DNA from: an uncultured Erythrobacter sp.
GTDB taxonomy: Bacteria > Pseudomonadota > Alphaproteobacteria > Sphingomonadales > Sphingomonadaceae
Assembly (NCBI GenBank): GCA_937899785.1
Contig: CALCCG010000237.1
Location: 1-38,933 of the forward strand
Direction: 5' to 3'
DNA length: 38,933 bases
The notes under the pieces are model-generated. The model saw only the letters and a program-made list of their open reading frames with translations, was not told the origin of the DNA and ran no database searches. A program made the translations under genes and the position numbers. Positions 5,873 to 21,011 of this stretch are shown piece by piece. The first letter of the stretch is position 1. Each line of letters begins with the position of its first letter.

Positions 5873-5989
5873 CCCGTCCTTTATCCGTTGTCATCGCTTT
5901 TGCGAGAAATGGCACAGGAGAGCTCGTCGATCCCTCGCGAGCGCTGCCTGTGCCATACCCCGGATCCCAACGGGGCGGGGCGGGCTGTA

Positions 5990-7687
5990 TCAGACTTCTT
6001 CGACGACGTAGAGTCCGGGAGCGCCCTCAAGCGGGGCATAGTCCTTGCTGCCAAGCTCGCTCGGCGCGGCGATCTTTTTACCAGCGCGCTTTTGCACCCA
6101 TTCCGCCCAAAGCGGCCACCAGCTGCCTTTGACCTCTTCGGTGCCTTGCAGCCATTCATCAGCGGTCGCGGGCAGCTTGCCCTTCTTCTTCTGGACGAAA
6201 TACTTGGCCTTGGGATTGGTCGGCGGGTTGAGGATCGCCTGCATATGCCCGCTCTGCGAGAGGACATAGGTGACATCCTTGGAGCCAAACAGCTGGGTCG
6301 AGCGATAGGTCGCCTTCCACGGCGTGATGTGATCGGTCACTCCGCCCAGGATGAAAAGGTCAGAGGTAACCTTGGTGAGGTCAACCATGTGGCCCGCCAT
6401 TTCGGTTTCCCCCGGGGTGGAGAAAGCGAGCGTCTCATACAGCGTCAGGAAGTCGCCCATCAGGGTTGAGGAGAGGTTGGTCGCATCCGAATTCCAGAAC
6501 AGGACATCAAAGGCCGGCGGGTCCATACCCAGCAGGTAATTGTTGATGACATAGTTCCAGATGAGATCATTGGGCCGCAGCCAGGCAAAGCCGCGCGCAA
6601 GGTCATCGGCCTTGATAATCCCCTGCTTCGCCGCGCGCTGGCGCGCCAATTGCAGGCCATTCTCGCTCACCAGCGAGCCCGCTTCGATGTCGGTCGGTTT
6701 GGGGTGGAGCACGCACACCATCAGCGTGAGCGAGCCCAGCACGTCGTTCTTGGTCGCCGCCAGTTTCGAGGCCAGCACGGACGCGGTCTGCCCTCCAGAG
6801 CAACCGGCTGAAACGTTGACTTTCTTGGACCCAGTGATGTTCGAGACCACTGTGAGCGCCTCTTCGCACGAGGCTATGTAGTCATCCATGCCCCACACGC
6901 CCTGTTCTTTGGACGGGTTACGCCAGGAGATAACAAAGGTTTGCAGGCCGTTATCGACCTGCCACTTGATGATCGACTTCTCTGGTGAGAGGTCGTTGAT
7001 GTACATCTTGTTGATCTGCGGCGGGATTGTAAGCTGGGGAATCTCGTAGACGTCATCCGTGGTGGCTGCGTATTGGATCAGCTCGTACATCTCGGTGCGG
7101 TGGACGACGCTGCCTTTGGAGGTCGCGACATTCTCACCCAATTTGAACGGGCGCTTGTCGACCTGACTGACCATGCCCTTGTTCTTGGTGAGATCGGTGT
7201 AGGCGTTTTGCAGACCCTTGATCAGGCTCAGGCCGCCGGAATTGATGATCTGCTTTTGCGCCATTGGGTTGCCCACCAGCGTGTTGGTTGGGGCCAAGCC
7301 GTCGAGGATGATGTTGGCGATAAAATTGGCGCGGTTGCGCTCCAATTCATCAAGCTCGAGGTCCTCCAGCCAATTGCGCATGCCCTTTTGCACGGCGAGG
7401 TAATATTGCGCGCCGGCGCGGAAGAAGGGGTTGTACTGCCAGGCCGGGTCCATGAAACGCTTATCTTTGGGGTGCGGCTTTAAGTCGCTCTTGCCGGTCA
7501 TGATCTTGACCATGTCCTCGGTCATCGAACGGGCGTGTTTGAACACGCGGTTCGGATCCGATGCGGTCTCGCGCAAAAGCAGCGCAACCGCTGAAACAAA
7601 GTCTTCGCGCGCAACACCGATCAGCGGTCCTAGAGCGTTTGTCGACTGGGCTGCCTCGTTTTCCAGTTGTACCGTTCCGTCTGCCAT
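5990..7687 (-). CDS. phaC: class II-like poly(3-hydroxyalkanoate) synthase
   Basis: 565-aa PHA synthase, which polymerises (R)-3-hydroxyacyl-CoA into storage polyester at the granule surface. The lipase-like box is SAGCSGG with nucleophile Cys296; the other catalytic residues are Asp452 (GGVTDHITPW) and His481 (SGHMQAILNPP), and Trp398 lies in LFWNSD. This numbering coincides, as I recall it, with Pseudomonas class II PhaC1 (Cys296, Trp398, Asp452), and the single-subunit length also fits class II. Class II enzymes usually prefer medium-chain (C6-C14) monomers, so an mcl-PHA product is inferred but not proven. The ATG has AAAGGGA about 8 nt upstream. phaZ follows on the same strand; no phasin, phaD or second synthase is in the window. 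Confidence 0.92.
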   Translation of the reverse strand: MADGTVQLENEAAQSTNALGPLIGVAREDFVSAVALLLRETASDPNRVFKHARSMTEDMVKIMTGKSDLKPHPKDKRFMDPAWQYNPFFRAGAQYYLAVQKGMRNWLEDLELDELERNRANFIANIILDGLAPTNTLVGNPMAQKQIINSGGLSLIKGLQNAYTDLTKNKGMVSQVDKRPFKLGENVATSKGSVVHRTEMYELIQYAATTDDVYEIPQLTIPPQINKMYINDLSPEKSIIKWQVDNGLQTFVISWRNPSKEQGVWGMDDYIASCEEALTVVSNITGSKKVNVSAGCSGGQTASVLASKLAATKNDVLGSLTLMVCVLHPKPTDIEAGSLVSENGLQLARQRAAKQGIIKADDLARGFAWLRPNDLIWNYVINNYLLGMDPPAFDVLFWNSDATNLSSTLMGDFLTLYETLAFSTPGETEMAGHMVDLTKVTSDLFILGGVTDHITPWKATYRSTQLFGSKDVTYVLSQSGHMQAILNPPTNPKAKYFVQKKKGKLPATADEWLQGTEEVKGSWWPLWAEWVQKRAGKKIAAPSELGSKDYAPLEGAPGLYVVEEV

Positions 7688-13247: not shown

Positions 13248-15065
13248 ATGACTGACCTTTCCAAAATTCGCAATTTCTCGATCATCGCGCATATCGACCA
13301 TGGCAAGTCCACGCTGGCGGACCGGCTGATCCAGTTCACCGGCGGCCTCACCGAGCGCGAGATGACCGAGCAAGTCCTTGATAACATGGATATTGAGCAA
13401 GAGCGCGGCATCACGATCAAGGCCCAGACCGTCCGCCTCAATTACACCGCGAAGGACGGCGAGACCTACCAGCTCAACCTGATGGACACGCCTGGTCACG
13501 TCGACTTCGCCTATGAGGTTTCGCGCAGCCTCGCCGCGTGCGAAGGCGCGCTGCTGGTCGTCGACGCAGCCCAAGGCGTCGAAGCGCAAACCCTCGCCAA
13601 CGTCTACCAGTCGATCGAGCACGACCACGAAATCGTCCCCGTCATCAACAAGGTCGACCTGCCCGCCGCCGAGCCCGAGCGTGTGCAGGAGGAAATCGAA
13701 GAGGTCATCGGCCTCGACGCCTCCGAAGCCGTCATGACGTCAGCCAAGACCGGCATCGGCATCGAAGACGTGCTCGAAGCGGTCGTCGCCAAAATCCCGG
13801 CCCCCGAGGGCGCGCGCGACGTCCCGCTCAAAGCCTCCCTCGTCGACAGCTGGTACGACCCCTATCTCGGCGTAGTCATCCTCGTGCGCGTCATTGAGGG
13901 AGCGCTCACAAAAGGCCAGAACATCACGTTCATGCAGGGCGGCACCCAGCATCTGGTCGACCGTGTCGGCTGCTTCACCCCCAAACGCACCGACCTTACC
14001 GAACTCGGCCCCGGCGAAATCGGCTTTATCACCGCTCAGATCAAAGAGGTTGAGCAAGCCCGCGTCGGCGACACGATCACCACGGTGAAAGGCGGGGCGA
14101 GCGAACCGCTGCCCGGCTATAAGGACGTGCAACCGGTGGTGTTCTGCGGGCTCTTCCCGGTCGATGCAGCGGACTTTGAAAAGCTGCGCGAGAGCATCGC
14201 CAAGCTGCGCCTCAACGATGCGAGCTTTTCGTTCGAGATGGAAAGCTCCGCCGCGCTGGGCTTTGGCTTTCGTTGCGGGTTCCTGGGCCTCTTGCACCTC
14301 GAGATCATTCAGGAGCGGCTCTCCCGCGAATACGATCTCGACCTCATCACCACCGCGCCCAGCGTCGTCTACCGCTTGCAGCTGAGCAAGTCGAAGACCG
14401 AGGACGCCAAGCAGATCATGCTCCACAACCCCGCCGACTGGCCCGATGTGAACCGCATCGATGTGATCGAGGAGCCGTGGATCAAGGCGGTGATCTACAC
14501 GCCGGACGACTATCTCGGATCGATCCTCAAACTGTGTCAGGACCGCCGCGGCATCCAGACCGATCTCACCTATGTCGGCGGGCGCGCGCAGGTGACCTAC
14601 GAATTGCCGCTCAACGAGGTCGTGTTCGATTTTTACGACCGCCTCAAATCGATCTCACGCGGCTACGCCAGCTTCGATTACGAGCAGATCGGCCTGCGCC
14701 AAGGCGATCTGGTGAAGATGAACATCCTGGTGAACGCCGAACCCGTCGACGCGCTGTCGCTGATCGTGCACGCGGGCGTCGCCGAAGAGCGCGGCCGCGG
14801 CATGTGCGAGCGCCTCAAAGACCTGATCCCGCGCCACCTCTTCAAAATCCCGGTGCAAGCCGCGATCGGCGGCAAAATCATCGCCCGCGAAACCATCGCC
14901 GCGATGCGCAAGGACGTGACGGCGAAGTGCTATGGCGGCGACATCAGCCGCAAGAAAAAGCTGCTGGAAAAGCAGAAGAAGGGCAAAGCGAAGATGCGCG
15001 AATATGGGAATGTAAGCATCCCGCAGGAGGCTTTCATTGCGGCGCTGCGGATGGGGGAGGAGTAG
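13248..15065 (+). CDS. lepA: elongation factor 4 (LepA)
   Basis: 605-aa translational GTPase LepA/EF4, which acts on the ribosome during initiation or elongation and is normally about 600 aa. The G1 motif AHIDHGKST is at residues 14-22, ERGITIKAQ (switch I) and DTPGHVDF (G3) follow, then NKVDLP (G4). The C-terminal LepA-specific region rich in Lys ([21 protein letters not shown]) is present near the end. The ATG follows a 121-bp spacer after the c-di-GMP gene; no strong Shine-Dalgarno is visible. Only 3 bp separate its stop codon from the stop of the convergent restriction endonuclease gene, so no room is left for a normal terminator of its own. Confidence 0.97.
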
Positions 15066-15068
15066 GCG

Positions 15069-15863
15069 CTAGTCTCGATACCCTCGGATCGCCGCAGCAT
15101 CGAGTTCTGACGCGGGCACAAGTCGATAATGGCGTTCTTCAACGACTTGCACTGAGTCATCCTGAATCGTCAGCTCGAATAGAGCCACAACACCATCGTC
15201 CATGAACTGTGCAGATATCGCCCGACACTTCAAACCAGGAAATTTGGCCTCAACAAATGCAATATCCTGGCTCGTTTGGACGACCCCAATCTGATCATTC
15301 CCACCTTTTGCTTGGACCGGTACAACGTAGTGACAGCCGTGCTTGTCGATACCAATGTAAAGCTCATCAATCTCAATTTGGCCGAGATCTTTGACAATCG
15401 TACGAAGATGGTTCTGGAGGCTAAATGTCGTCAATCCGAGAAAGGTATCGATTAGTCGATTGTAACGAACAATGGCCAGGAGTGCTTGTTCGTCATCCAG
15501 CGCGTAAGCACGTATGACCTCTGGAGTGGCATCGGGAATTGAGATCTTGACCAGCTCGGGCCGAGGAACGATGCGGGTCTTCTTTACTAGTCGGAAACGA
15601 TAGCGAGAACGGCCAGCCCCTTCGATGATCCACTCGCGACCGTCTGTCTGAGTGGCGAGGACTGACGTCGGCATTGGTGTCCGATAACGTACGCTATAGA
15701 TTACATCGCCCAAGTTTCTCGGCAGCTCGATACCGAGTTCTTTGGCTTTCTCGACTAGGTCTGCTCGATCAAATTCGAAAGATTCGACGTCATGTTTGAA
15801 GTGATCGAAAAAGATGCTTTCGATAAGTTTTTGATACCTGCTGCTCGGCTTTTTTTTAGCCAT
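15069..15863 (-). CDS. putative type II restriction endonuclease (methyltransferase partner)
   Basis: 264-aa protein encoded directly after a C5-cytosine methyltransferase, overlapping its last 8 bp (ATGGCTAA shared). Gene order, coupling and lower GC fit the nuclease half of a type II restriction-modification system. The likely catalytic core is in the second half: DELYIGID followed by VPVQAKGG, that is Asp173 then Gln184-x-Lys186, a PD-(D/E)xK-like arrangement with Gln in place of the acidic residue; Glu164 or Glu167 could add a further ligand. The N-terminal half (1-130) shows no motif I recognise and may bind DNA. The target sequence cannot be read from the protein. It converges on lepA with a 3-bp gap. 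Nuclease identity rests on context plus a plausible core, not on a known full-length family. Confidence 0.65.
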   Translation of the reverse strand: MAKKKPSSRYQKLIESIFFDHFKHDVESFEFDRADLVEKAKELGIELPRNLGDVIYSVRYRTPMPTSVLATQTDGREWIIEGAGRSRYRFRLVKKTRIVPRPELVKISIPDATPEVIRAYALDDEQALLAIVRYNRLIDTFLGLTTFSLQNHLRTIVKDLGQIEIDELYIGIDKHGCHYVVPVQAKGGNDQIGVVQTSQDIAFVEAKFPGLKCRAISAQFMDDGVVALFELTIQDDSVQVVEERHYRLVPASELDAAAIRGYRD

Positions 15864-17193
15864 TTGCGGTCTTTAGACTAGCGGCAATTTCTGCTTCAAT
15901 ATCTTCTTGCTTTCTTTTCTTTGCGCCACTTTTCATCGTGCGACGTGTTTCCGGTGGTTTAACGTCAAAGAATGCCGCGGCTTCGCCAACGGTCATGCGT
16001 AAGAGCTTTGGATCACCCAGATCCAGTGTTTCCAATTGTTCTGATGAATCGAAACGCCCTGAAAGGAAGACCTGTTCTGCTACTGCTCGAGCTAAAGGAG
16101 GAGGCACTGAGTTGCCGATCTGCCGTGCACCATGCCATTTTGTTTCGTTGAAGCGAAACCAATCAGGATAGCCGTGGAGCCTCGCCATTTCTCGGACAGT
16201 CACGCACCTAGCAAACTTGTAGTGAATAGGGCGAGGGGAAGTGCAAGCCCCTCGTGCACCGTCCGTACCGGCCCGCAAGGTGTTGCTCAGCCCATCGCGA
16301 TGCAGCTTGTAGAAGCGGGAGATTGGGTCGGTTTCGCCTTCGACGGTAGACGCAAATCTTCTCCTTGAGATTTCAGTGTGTTCTGTCCTAGCGCTCGAGG
16401 TGAGTTGATTTGGGTCCCAGTTCCGAATTTTGCCTTTGTGCAAAGGAGCATTGGTCCGGCACCGCATTTCTTCGGAGTATTTAGAGCCCTTGCCCCAGCT
16501 TGTGAAAGGCACTTCATCAGTTGTCCTCAGCTCTTTGAATTGTTCAGCATCTGGTAAATCAGAGAGGGCATCAGCCGGCGAAGGCCCAACTGGCTTTCCT
16601 GGGATGAACTTCCTTTTTCCATCTGCTGGATTTGTCTGGAGCTCCGGGTAATCAGGTAGTTGCTTTCCCGTTTTCGCTCCAAATAATATCAGTCGTTCCC
16701 GATGCTGAGGAACACAATAGTTGGCGGCGTCCAAAACCTGCCAAGGGGTGCGCACTTCATATCCTAGTTCGTTTGCATACTCGATAAACTCGGTGAGGAA
16801 TTTCTTATGCTTCCCGACCGTAAGGCCCTTCACGTTTTCGAATACGAAATAGGTTGCAGCCAACTCCGCTGTGATCCGAAGGAAGTCGCGCACTAGTCGA
16901 TTTCGCGGATCATCCAAAACCCGCTGCCCAATCATTGAGAACCCTTGACAAGGCGTTCCACCGAAAACGACATCGTCTTTCTTAGCGCCCAATCCCGCTG
17001 CAACACGTATTTCACTGGCTCTAAGGCCCTCAACCGACCGAGGTAGTACGGCGCAATCCGGGAAGTTGTATTTGTGCGTAGCGCAGTGCACTGGATCAAT
17101 TTCTACTGCTGCGACTATGTCAAAGCCAGCTTGTTCAAAGCCTAGGCTCATCCCACCAGCTCCAGCGAAAAGGTCGATTCCAATCGGACGCAT
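15856..17193 (-). CDS. DNA (cytosine-5-)-methyltransferase
   Basis: 445-aa C5-cytosine methyltransferase protecting the host site of the adjacent nuclease. Conserved motifs in order: I DLFAGAGGMSLGFEQAG (7-23), IV GGTPCQGFS with catalytic Cys82, VI FENV (118-121), VIII QHRERL (163-168), a target-recognition region (about 180-320) and X GNSVPPPLARAVAEQ (from about 360). About 65 residues follow motif X, including a basic stretch, which is longer than minimal enzymes. The ATG at 17193 is chosen because GGAG lies 7 nt upstream and MRPIGIDLFAGAGG is the normal opening; in-frame ATGs at 17205 and 17259 are less likely. Its GC content is visibly lower than lepA or the purine genes, a sign of transfer. 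Confidence 0.93.
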   Translation of the reverse strand: MRPIGIDLFAGAGGMSLGFEQAGFDIVAAVEIDPVHCATHKYNFPDCAVLPRSVEGLRASEIRVAAGLGAKKDDVVFGGTPCQGFSMIGQRVLDDPRNRLVRDFLRITAELAATYFVFENVKGLTVGKHKKFLTEFIEYANELGYEVRTPWQVLDAANYCVPQHRERLILFGAKTGKQLPDYPELQTNPADGKRKFIPGKPVGPSPADALSDLPDAEQFKELRTTDEVPFTSWGKGSKYSEEMRCRTNAPLHKGKIRNWDPNQLTSSARTEHTEISRRRFASTVEGETDPISRFYKLHRDGLSNTLRAGTDGARGACTSPRPIHYKFARCVTVREMARLHGYPDWFRFNETKWHGARQIGNSVPPPLARAVAEQVFLSGRFDSSEQLETLDLGDPKLLRMTVGEAAAFFDVKPPETRRTMKSGAKKRKQEDIEAEIAASLKTANG

Positions 17194-17353
17194 CGTATTC
17201 TCCATTCGCTTTTGGTTGGTGAAACAGTAGCGGAACATCTGCAAGGGTAAGGCCACCAACTTGCGTCAGAATGGTCCTAGTTGTCCACGCTTAGCGCTAG
17301 CCTCCCCAAACGCTCCGCTCCGCGTTTGCTGACGCTCACCGGCCTCTAGCTTG

Positions 17354-17601
17354 TCGCTTGCTCCGCAGGCGCCTGGTCTAGCCACCGTCGCTCACACCCA
17401 CCGATCCGCCTCAAACCCCTCATCCTTAAGCGAGTGCACCGTTTTCCTCGGCTTGGGCTTGGGGGGTTTGGGGCGCCAATCGTAGGGCTCTTCGTTCCGC
17501 TCCTCGCGCGGGGCGCGCTCGGCCTCAAAACGCGCTGCGTCTTCGGCGGCGATGCGCGCTTCGTCGCGGGCCTTGAGCCGCTCAAACAGCGCGTGCGCGC
17601 G
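17354..17601. repeat. direct repeat copy A (248 bp), detached 3' end of the HTH-like gene
   Basis: This segment matches 18332-18579 in the same orientation at a constant offset of 978 bp, with one mismatch seen (T at 17560, G at 18538). It comprises 38 bp downstream of the gene's stop codon and the last 69 codons plus stop. The similarity stops sharply at both ends. Together the copies bracket the toxin-antitoxin genes. The comparison was made by eye. Confidence 0.93.
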
Positions 17602-17631
17602 CCGGTTCGCGACTAGGACGCAGACGCTCAC
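17392..17631 (-). pseudogene. 3' remnant of the 279-aa HTH-like gene, open as a 79-aa frame
   Basis: The reading frame carries the last 69 residues of the intact gene at 18370-19209 (from RAHALFERLKARD to FEADRWV, with one D-to-E change) preceded by ten unrelated residues. It is most simply a truncated duplicate. It is not closed, however: a GTG at 17629-17631 overlaps the antitoxin stop codon (GTGA), so it could be translated by coupling as a third gene of the toxin-antitoxin transcript. The peptide is highly charged, with a Pro/Lys-rich stretch (RPKPPKPKPRK). No function can be assigned; remnant is the default view. Confidence 0.7.
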
Positions 17632-17915
17632 TGCAACAACTCCCCCACCAAGCTAGGCCTTTTCGCAATCATCGCCAGTAAGACCCGCCCCGGCCCGGTA
17701 GGCCGCCGCCGTCCGTGCTCCCAGTTGAGCAGCGTGCCCTTCGCGACGCCGATGCTGCGCGCGAACTCGGCTTGGGATAGGCCGGTGCTCGCGCGGATCG
17801 CGACCACGTCGACTTCGGGCACTTCGACCTCGTGCACCCGCGCGCCGGTCTTTTTGCCCTCGGCAAACTCGATGGCCTCGGTGAGGCCTTGTTTGATGCT
17901 TTCGTAAGCGCTCAT
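17628..17915 (-). CDS. XRE-family antitoxin (HigA-like)
   Basis: 95-aa antitoxin with a helix-turn-helix in the C-terminal half (IRASTGLSQAEFARSIGVAKGTLLNWEHGRRRPTGPGRVLLAMI, about residues 40-83), the pattern of XRE-type antitoxins of HigBA modules. The N-terminal part (YESIKQGLTEAIEFAEGKK) is the typical toxin-binding arm. Its ATG overlaps the toxin stop by 4 bp (ATGA), giving the toxin-first order typical of higBA. It should neutralise the upstream-encoded toxin and repress the shared promoter at 18267-18293. The stop overlaps the GTG of the downstream remnant frame. Confidence 0.85.
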   Translation of the reverse strand: MSAYESIKQGLTEAIEFAEGKKTGARVHEVEVPEVDVVAIRASTGLSQAEFARSIGVAKGTLLNWEHGRRRPTGPGRVLLAMIAKRPSLVGELLQ

Positions 17916-18253
17916 TGATTGTCTCCATGTCGGGCGATCAGGGCCTTGCTCAGCTCCACCAGCTCGGCCTGTTCCTTGCGCCCCAGATTGTCCTTCTCGT
18001 TCTTGGCGAACACGGTCAGAAGATAGATCGGCATATGCCGCCCGCCGAACACGTAAACGGTGCGATAGCCGCCGCTCTTGCCGCCGCCGGGGCGGGCAAA
18101 TCGGACCTTGCGAAGGCCACCGCCCAGCGAAACCCCGGCGTGCGGGTTGGCGGCGATGAAATCGACGAGTGCGCCGCGTTCGTCCTCGCTCATGACCCCC
18201 TTGGCCCGTCGGAGGAATTCGGGGAGTTCGACGACGGTCTGGAGCGGGGGCAT
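17912..18253 (-). CDS. RelE/HigB-family toxin
   Basis: 113-aa protein of the RelE/ParE superfamily, HigB-like group, whose members usually cut mRNA on the ribosome. Seen: N-terminal helices (LPEFLRRAKGVMSEDERGALVDFIAANPHAG), a beta-sheet core (GGLRKVRFARPGGGKSGGYRTVYVFGG.HMPIYLLTVFAKNEKDNL) and a C-terminal helix, all in family order. The phrase YLLTVFAKNEKDNL is typical of this group. It is followed with a 4-bp overlap by the antitoxin. Its promoter region bears strong -35 and -10 hexamers. Assignment as a toxin is confident; the molecular target is inferred from the family. Confidence 0.85.
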   Translation of the reverse strand: MPPLQTVVELPEFLRRAKGVMSEDERGALVDFIAANPHAGVSLGGGLRKVRFARPGGGKSGGYRTVYVFGGRHMPIYLLTVFAKNEKDNLGRKEQAELVELSKALIARHGDNQ

Positions 18254-18266
18254 TATCCAGGATGAG

Positions 18267-18293
18267 TATACTTCACTGGCGCATATGTCAATG
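18267..18293 (-). promoter_or_regulatory. promoter and probable operator of the toxin-antitoxin operon
   Basis: On the minus strand TTGACA (18293-18288) and TATACT (18272-18267) stand 15 nt apart, 14 bp upstream of the toxin ATG (the -10 ends at 18267, ATG at 18253). The -10 lies inside an 8-bp palindrome AGTATACT (18267-18274), a natural place for autorepression by the XRE antitoxin. Hexamers are near consensus; the spacer is one or two bases short. Confidence 0.5.
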
Positions 18294-18331
18294 ACGTATA
18301 TTTGGTGCGCCCACCACGCGCCGTTCCGCGT

Positions 18332-18579
18332 TCGCTTGCTCCGCAGGCGCCTGGTCTAGCCACCGTCGCTCACACCCACCGATCCGCCTCAAACCCCTCA
18401 TCCTTAAGCGAGTGCACCGTTTTCCTCGGCTTGGGCTTGGGGGGTTTGGGGCGCCAATCGTAGGGCTCTTCGTTCCGCTCCTCGCGCGGGGCGCGCTCGG
18501 CCTCAAAACGCGCTGCGTCTTCGGCGGCGATGCGCGCGTCGTCGCGGGCCTTGAGCCGCTCAAACAGCGCGTGCGCGCG
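18332..18579. repeat. direct repeat copy B (248 bp), native 3' end of the HTH-like gene
   Basis: Partner of 17354-17601, same orientation, one mismatch seen. In this copy the coding part continues into the full gene (18370-19209), so B is the parental context and A the duplicate. The 752 bp separating the copies (17602-18331) hold exactly the toxin-antitoxin genes and their promoter. Recombination between the copies would remove 978 bp with the whole module. Confidence 0.93.
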
Positions 18580-19209
18580 GCGGGTTGCGGGGGAGAGGCG
18601 CTTCCATTGCTCGGCGCGGCGGTGGTCGGCTTCGAGCCGGGCCGCCTCAATCTTCGCGTCAAGGCTGGCGCGCACTTCCTGTGGGGTAACGCCGTTCTGC
18701 TCGGCCTCCCATTCGGCGCGCCACTCTTTCTTGAGCCGCTCAACCTCCATCTTGCCGATCGCGCCCAGGCCTTTCGCGCGCCCCTCCGCAAAGCGCTCCG
18801 GGCTGCGGTTGCGCAGCATGAACATGAGCAAGCGGTCGTTGTAGCGCTTTCGCGTGCCGATGAGCTTGCCATAGGAATAGAGCGGCTCGTCCACGCCGTT
18901 GAGCGCGCGGTCCATCGCGACATCCTCGATCCGCTGGACGCCCAGATCGAGCGCCTTTTGCCAGGCCTCGCGAAATTCCTCGGCGCCCTCAGAGCGGCGC
19001 AGGTGATAGACGCCGTGCGTGCTCATCGCGACGATCTTGCAGGCCGCGCTCACCGAACCGGTGTCCGCGAGCGCTTCGATAAAGGCGCGCTGGCGCTCGG
19101 GCGTCCAACCGTCCTGGCGCTGGGCCTGGCGGGGCACGGGGGTTATGTCGTGCAGGTGCCCATGGGGGACGGGCGGGCCGGATGCGGGCGGGTCAGCTTT
19201 GCGGGTCAT
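18370..19209 (-). CDS. conserved hypothetical protein with N-terminal HTH-like region
   Basis: 279-aa protein of unknown function. Residues about 34-75 (WTPERQRAFIEALADTGSVSAACKIVAMSTHGVYHLRR) look like the helix-turn-helix of small terminase or transposase-type DNA-binding proteins; the middle (about 75-140) continues EFREAWQKALDLGVQRIEDVAMDRALNG; the C-terminal third is charged and helical, ending in a basic Pro/Lys-rich stretch and FEADRWV. The ATG at 19209 is chosen because the family-like sequence begins soon after; no good Shine-Dalgarno is visible, and the longer open frame to 19875 runs antisense through the phosphoribosyltransferase. The last 69 codons are duplicated at 17392. It is divergent from the purine salvage operon (102 bp to its TTG). 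A phage or mobile-element origin is possible but unproven. Confidence 0.7.
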   Translation of the reverse strand: MTRKADPPASGPPVPHGHLHDITPVPRQAQRQDGWTPERQRAFIEALADTGSVSAACKIVAMSTHGVYHLRRSEGAEEFREAWQKALDLGVQRIEDVAMDRALNGVDEPLYSYGKLIGTRKRYNDRLLMFMLRNRSPERFAEGRAKGLGAIGKMEVERLKKEWRAEWEAEQNGVTPQEVRASLDAKIEAARLEADHRRAEQWKRLSPATRRAHALFERLKARDDARIAAEDAARFEAERAPREERNEEPYDWRPKPPKPKPRKTVHSLKDEGFEADRWV

Positions 19210-20924: not shown

Positions 20925-20942
20925 GACCGGATCGCCTTTCGC

Positions 20943-20990
20943 CCGGTCCTTTGCGCGGTCCGTCGACCGGTCCTTTGCCCGGTCCGTCGC
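20943..20990. repeat. 24-bp tandem repeat, two copies
   Basis: Units at 20943-20966 and 20967-20990 are identical at 22 of 24 positions. Each unit is itself a doubled motif (CGGTCC followed by TTTGC or GTCG). It lies in the 107-bp spacer between the adenine deaminase stop and the convergent membrane-protein gene. It is too short for CRISPR; it could be slippage-prone DNA. Confidence 0.85.
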
Positions 20991-21011
20991 GGGGCCCTTA
21001 CCCCCGTCTCG

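Follow-up and report, generated by a model that had tools for sequence, protein, structure and literature searches.

A predicted toxin-antitoxin module between two copies of a neighbouring gene's 3′ end in the lepA-HTH slot of an Erythrobacter genome, and its possible origin by splicing of two slot alleles

The stretch of DNA analysed here (the window) comprises 38,933 nucleotides of contig CALCCG010000237.1 from an uncultured Erythrobacter sp. (assembly GCA_937899785.1). Within it lies a slot bounded on one side by lepA, encoding elongation factor 4 (13248..15065, forward strand; TIGR01393, E 7.4e-287), and on the other by a convergent gene for a 279-aa terminase-small-subunit-like HTH protein (18370..19209, reverse strand; phrog_4044, E 9.6e-26), which has no match in Pfam or NCBIfam. 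Of 114 genus genomes, 66 (its own included) have a match to the HTH protein with E ≤ 1e-50, and in the compared genomes of the genus the best full-length match reaches 64-65%. Next to lepA are the genes for a 264-aa type II restriction enzyme (REase; 15069..15863, reverse strand; PADLOC REase_II PDLC03404, E 1.6e-131), without a match in Pfam, NCBIfam or the PDB sequences, and for a cytosine-5 DNA methyltransferase (MTase; 15856..17202, reverse strand; PF00145; PADLOC MTase_II, E 6.9e-159). Adjacent as they are, and recognized by the PADLOC models, they constitute a predicted type II restriction-modification (R-M) pair. Elsewhere in the window, at 20939-20998, short tandem-like repeats of the TCGCCCGGTCCTTTGCGCGGTCCG type lie directly behind an adenosine deaminase gene.

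The genes on the HTH side of the slot form a predicted HigB2/HigA2-like toxin-antitoxin (TA) module. Its first gene encodes a HigB2-like toxin (17912..18253, reverse strand; PF06296 RelE, E 3.4e-12; HigB-2 chains, best E 1.8e-11) and its second a HigA2/NadS-like antitoxin (17628..17915, reverse strand; NF041265 above cut-off; HTH_3; HigA-2 chains, best E 2.6e-9), the closest solved relatives being HigB-2 and HigA-2, respectively. A RelE-like toxin gene followed on the same strand by an overlapping HTH antitoxin gene is the arrangement of type II TA modules of the HigBA2/NadS type. The predicted module resembles HigB2/HigA2 modules in its toxin-first order, RelE-type toxin and HTH antitoxin, and is unlike them in being bracketed by gene tails. 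The stretch between the HTH and toxin genes (18254..18331, reverse strand) contains a promoter-like CATTGAC..TA part that, by alignment, is common to the HTH-adjoining TA modules of three other loci (L092, L036 and L186) and may be the TA promoter.

The gene tails are direct copies of 258 nt at 17354-17611 and 18332-18589, with 98% identity and a spacing of 978 bp in a repeat search of the window. A reading made from the sequence alone, without database searches, had described a match of 247 of 248 positions in the same orientation around the module, and a base-by-base comparison agrees: the 248-bp cores (17354-17601 and 18332-18579) enclose 730 bp carrying the TA genes and have a sole mismatch at 17560 (T) against 18538 (G), while the mismatches at 17602, 17606 and 17608 all fall in the final 10 bp of the 258-nt repeat. 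At the column of the single core mismatch the relatives are too diverged to give the ancestral state. The draft genome of 256 contigs has the repeat at exactly two places (E 4.8e-132 and 1.3e-126), so it is not due to chance. One copy is native and one detached, as that reading had also stated; the right copy (18332..18589, reverse strand) consists of the last 220 bp of the HTH gene and 38 bp past its stop, and the left copy (17354..17611, reverse strand) is the detached one. Beyond the left end of the repeat and past a 28-bp indel in the detached copy, an element piece at 17310..17326 (reverse strand) matches the native continuation at 18316-18332 in 15 of 17 bp, the latter sharing its first base with the end of the native repeat. 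This is a short match whose score was reached by 1 of 1000 shuffles, and its mismatch rate is 2/17 against 1/248 in the repeat (Fisher p 0.011).

The slot between lepA and the HTH gene was found at 113 distinct loci, window included, in Erythrobacter and relatives. These loci come from a contig scan (best 80 of 97 relatives) and from the 114 genus genomes (60 of 65 places outside the window fetched), which together gave 120 loci after removal of duplicates, 113 of them with lepA. Between the HTH stop and the end of lepA the median distance is 2.9 kb, with extremes of −132 and 4731 bp. The cargo is diverse, with 233 ORFs of at least 70 aa in 76 non-window loci of the first set falling into 170 clusters. 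A Pfam scan of the longest ORF per slot (101 ORFs; slots below 400 bp and ORFs above 1000 aa left out) gives HNH_2 in 13 and C5 methyltransferase in seven; the 25 listed of 65 Pfam families include further restriction or ATPase families in at most three ORFs each and no recognizable integrase. Constant flanks with differing cargo are the mark of a hotspot flanked by core genes, and the slot is a hotspot of likely defence genes. No description of it in Erythrobacteraceae was found in the literature searched by title and abstract start, with subscription journals largely outside that search.

Several slots contain TA genes close to the HTH gene. Searches with seven query proteins representing two HigBA families, a CcdAB pair (PF07362, PF01845) and an SRAP protein (PF02586) detect three families of TA genes, whole or as fragments, in 27 of 112 slots, in every case on the strand of the HTH gene. 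All except L098 and L103 (25/27) start within 600 bp of the HTH stop, where uniform starts would place about 6, with a maximum of 15 in 20,000 draws, the relatedness of the loci not being corrected for. The window's TA module sits in the place and orientation usual for slot TA genes. Its antitoxin is closest to the slot antitoxins of two genus genomes, G057 and G036 (94 and 93%; support 87/96 in a tree with 13 of 23 inner branches open), followed by those of slot L092 and of a slot in G012 (86 and 85-86%), and the four closest antitoxin relatives seen all adjoin the HTH gene in the slot. With the window's antitoxin as reference, antitoxins elsewhere in the genus reach at most 83% and four plasmid copies 67-83%.

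These observations speak against the earlier suggestion that the TA module is a small inserting unit that captured the HTH 3′ end: TA genes beside the HTH gene are common, the nearest relatives of the antitoxin have the same neighbour, and a search with the window's HTH protein finds no detached coding HTH tail in the other loci of the 113 with both flanking genes. The last 150 bp of the HTH gene used as query match in 24 of 112 slots; outside the window, these were rejected as detached tails and read instead as shifted stops or shared elements. Most of them are no more than about 210 bp from the stop of their own HTH gene, on its downstream side, several are near the lepA end or on the opposite strand, and many arise via one query (L043). 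A 12109-bp contig encodes P0006, the HTH protein of a close relative. Its first 199 residues are about 95% identical, with 10 differences counted by eye, and an unrelated C-terminus begins a few residues before the point that corresponds to the window's junction.

Transport of the TA module by a composite transposon, an integron cassette, an att-flanked island or another mobile unit with ends of its own would explain direct repeats at both ends of the insert, and TA DNA is indeed widespread on plasmids, with 53 records at 60-80%. This origin is nevertheless very unlikely, as no recombinase ORF lies between the repeats, in keeping with what the sequence-only reading had noted, the repeats are the end of a host gene found nowhere else in the genome, and a unit 17602-18331 with the same ends is not seen elsewhere. 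The TA DNA common to relatives stops near 17627-17634 and 18294-18299, inside the insert, and the module was for that reason rejected as a self-mobile unit with fixed ends.

The odd junction of the locus lies behind the antitoxin gene: there a second HTH 3′ end is followed by the R-M genes. Identity of the copies ends at 17601..17602, the putative illegitimate junction (no strand assigned), and 7 of the next 10 bp still match. In Erythrobacter longus (L033) the genes are arranged as HTH-MTase-REase-lepA, 76% and 81% identical, and this TA is absent; about 90 bp upstream of its MTase can be aligned with the sequence that follows the detached tail in the window. In another locus (L004, from G036) the match covers the detached copy and continues for a further 26 bp. 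From these alignments, both copies, the native and the detached one, appear to begin the same HTH-downstream stretch, which leads to TA in the first case and to R-M in the second. Among the four close slot relatives, inspected by eye, an HTH element directly before the TA promoter is found only in L092; L131 has the element but no toxin match, and L036 and L186 show no element there.

The two modules also occur separately. REase homologs are present in 5 of 114 genus genomes and lie next to the HTH gene or lepA only in the window's own genome (G000) and in G069, taken as E. longus from the HTH position; in both they are in the slot. In G012 and G035 they are far from the HTH gene or on another contig, and in G113 the homolog and lepA are on different contigs. 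G012 has TA in the slot and its REase homolog elsewhere, and E. longus has R-M without this TA. As to the one-copy strain without the TA module that the earlier reading suggested looking for, E. longus L033 would fit, with R-M behind its HTH gene and no insert, but it is another species. Among the genomes compared, all of which are clearly diverged, none is a conspecific strain with one or the other single allele, and the search for lepA tails gave none in the window's slot.

With the TA module in its usual place and both tails seemingly beginning one HTH-downstream stretch, a single new junction near 17601/17602 explains the layout. We favour, with a probability of roughly 0.6, the view that HTH-TA and HTH-R-M were two alleles of the slot that became spliced in tandem through one junction behind the antitoxin gene. 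An incoming DNA fragment would have recombined homologously at one slot flank, either lepA or the HTH gene and the genes behind it, and its other end would have joined illegitimately near 17601/17602, a process of homology-facilitated illegitimate recombination that would leave the HTH tail of the second allele as an orphan. A clean replacement of TA would presumably cost the cell its antitoxin, and this would favour survivors that keep TA with the newcomer stacked behind it. The identity of the copies, at 99.6%, suggests either that the donor was a close relative or that gene conversion followed. An exchange between the tails would remove 978 bp and with it the toxin genes, as the sequence-only reading had also concluded. 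Direction and mechanism of the splicing are inferred, and either allele could have been the recipient.

The case for allele splicing combines the usual TA place, the HTH-R-M order in E. longus, the shared element, the separate occurrence of the modules, the locus L103 and the junction peptide of P0002, a protein of a second genome, both described below. Counted against it are the 247/248 identity, for which one must assume a donor that is very closely related, an event of recent date or gene conversion; the abundance of TA DNA on plasmids, which makes an independent insertion possible; the shortness of the 15/17 element match and the presence of the element before the TA promoter in L092 only of four; and the lack of a conspecific single-allele strain among the diverged genomes compared.

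In L103 the SRAP gene (PF02586) lies between 85% identical 126-128-bp copies of its own HTH 3′ end, at HTH-relative positions −12..+115 and +940..+1065, the second copy being followed by a HigA-type match of 41%; we read this arrangement as a second, older case of such stacking. A comparison of each locus with its own HTH end also gives HTH-side repeats in L033, L045, L112, L133, L157 and L184. Other than in L103, these are pieces of 17-61 bp, most of them just downstream of the HTH gene, and were set aside; in L133, L157 and L184, CcdAB pairs are located between 39-56-bp copies of a stretch downstream of the HTH gene. In L108 a complete TA has upstream of it what is, by eye, a fragment of an antitoxin 3′ end, with repeats at 966-1032 and 1787-1858.

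The principal alternative is an insertion with long target duplication, in which a 730-bp TA unit entered an HTH-R-M-lepA ancestor at the HTH 3′ end and duplicated about 250 bp. Insertion with long target duplication has been described for R-M genes in Helicobacter (Nobusato et al. 2000, cited in PMC3874152, PMC3031569 and PMC1643837), and the accessible text of the citing papers records long, variable target duplications of about 100 bp for R-M systems. The locus resembles that system, as far as it is described there, in having a small selfish module between long direct target repeats, and E. longus has HTH-R-M without this TA. It is unlike it in that TA occupies its usual, HTH-proximal place and the tail leads into a second module. 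Two new junctions would be required instead of one, and, on a short match, the 28-bp indel and the unequal mismatch rates of extension and repeat (p 0.011) would not be expected of one simultaneous duplication. An origin by target duplication is considered unlikely.

The 3′ end of lepA, the opposite flank, is also repeated in some slots. With its last 150 bp as query, 18 of 112 slots give a match, which in 13 of them starts at query base 94-98, corresponding to about 15006-15010 in the window. Of four interior stretches of lepA used as controls, three match in 0 of 112 slots and the fourth in 12, falling to 0 (110 queries) once the query of L094, whose lepA is cut by the contig end, was dropped. 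Detached lepA 3′ tails are listed for L131, L178, L052, L092, L076, L080, L040, L107, L074 and L063; nine of the ten lie 57-75 bp behind the functional coding end, and that of L080 161 bp behind it. The functional lepA 3′ end is unusually coded in eight of these loci (not in L107 and L074), and further loci, among them L166, L186, L174 and L046, have an unusually coded end without a detached tail. The recoded end is located between 9-12-bp inverted repeats in L182, L174, L040, L092, L052, L076, L131 and L178, with one arm in lepA, some 73 bp short of the end of the gene, and the other 3-5 bp behind the coding end; the arms vary between species yet match each other. Elsewhere among the 112 loci, L141 has a 10-bp repeat at another position and the remainder have 8 bp or less. 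The L052 stretch, searched in seven genomes, is found once in each, one of them with a further partial match beside it.

Long detached lepA tails (about 135-165 bp, 81-88%) are present in L185 and L053 some 450-620 bp inside the slot, a mirror image of the window's HTH tail. A phage attachment site at the lepA 3′ end was considered and rejected, two pattern scans of viral contigs having given 0 and 1 match. The sole match, L195, comes from a viral collection and has a D12-class DNA methyltransferase gene (PF02086) nearby; as it holds a complete lepA, it was taken as chromosomal DNA. L056 has two 97-bp direct repeats of 99% identity (5903-5999 and 6735-6831), one just upstream of the HTH match and the other in the last part of that ORF (stop 6870).

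The putative junction is spanned by an ORF of 79 aa (17392..17631, reverse strand) in which nine residues encoded upstream of the junction precede the HTH C-terminus and whose start codon, GTG, overlaps with the stop of the antitoxin gene in the sequence GTGA. Among 5.8 billion proteins, a word-based search gives two matches, the ORF itself (P0001, recorded on two contigs) and P0002 (AAGA34_09575, on a contig of 7462 bp), a protein of 78 aa from another metagenome-assembled genome that is known here from its protein alone. P0002 is 77% identical overall and has the same first nine residues, the junction peptide MSVCVLVAN-RRAHALF and the same last eight residues; 18 of 79 alignment positions differ, and there is an in-frame gap. 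The differences are distributed as a mosaic, with 2 in the first 44 positions and 16 in the last 35 (p 1.8e-5), so the tails may have recombined since the junction arose, or P0002 may carry another allele. In a search for a full-length HTH protein with the tail of P0002, four clusters were listed (the window's own with 3 members, P0004, P0005 and P0054), and none was seen to have it, the tails of the two that were read, P0004 and P0005, being different.

P0002 bears on two objections anticipated in the sequence-only reading. An assembly error, in which the repeat was duplicated or a strain mixture joined, is conceivable for a draft of 256 contigs with 6.93% contamination, in which a 248-bp repeat can exceed short reads; the presence of the same junction peptide in a second genome, together with the record of the identical ORF on two contigs, makes it extremely unlikely. 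The other objection, that relatives might carry the same two copies with strong divergence between them, is touched upon in so far as P0002 has the same junction peptide and a tail 77% identical to the window's, but the native copy of its genome is unseen.

The detached tail could also be a working small gene, the TA operon having captured the HTH C-terminal domain and its product being made with the antitoxin through the GTGA overlap. The overlapping start would fit this, as would an ORF that is intact in the second genome despite 18 differences and an in-frame gap; an open frame would equally be expected after gene conversion from the native gene or if the tail were of recent origin, the mosaic points to recombination, and the HTH C-terminal domain has no known function. 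We regard a working gene as quite improbable. The wider idea that a host DNA-binding protein's C-terminal domain was captured as a live third gene, linking the addiction module to the slot flank, is likewise a doubtful one.

The proposed tandem splicing of slot alleles has a parallel in Vibrio cholerae, where effector-immunity modules are stacked, orphan genes are kept behind the newcomer and homology-facilitated illegitimate recombination has been proposed (PMC5361080). As portrayed in the accessible text of that paper, the Vibrio type VI clusters likewise have a constant gene, a variable downstream module and newcomers stacked next to older modules; unlike there, the constant gene here is the HTH gene, which is unrelated to the TA and R-M modules, and the orphan is the HTH gene's own 3′ tail. 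Integrase-less hotspots that recombine at flanking core genes are known as well, and the slot shares with those outlined in the accessible text of PMC5635113 two conserved flanks, high turnover and no common integrase seen, and differs in that TA is tied to one end and strand and that flank-gene tails persist inside.

If the splicing of two alleles is correct, the locus would record a way for modules to accumulate in a defence slot of the chromosome in the absence of a recombinase, through alleles joined end to end. The likely addictive module would keep its place at one end, and each event would be marked by orphan tails left from the flanking genes. Whether toxin-antitoxin genes guard such slots against swapping would thereby become testable.
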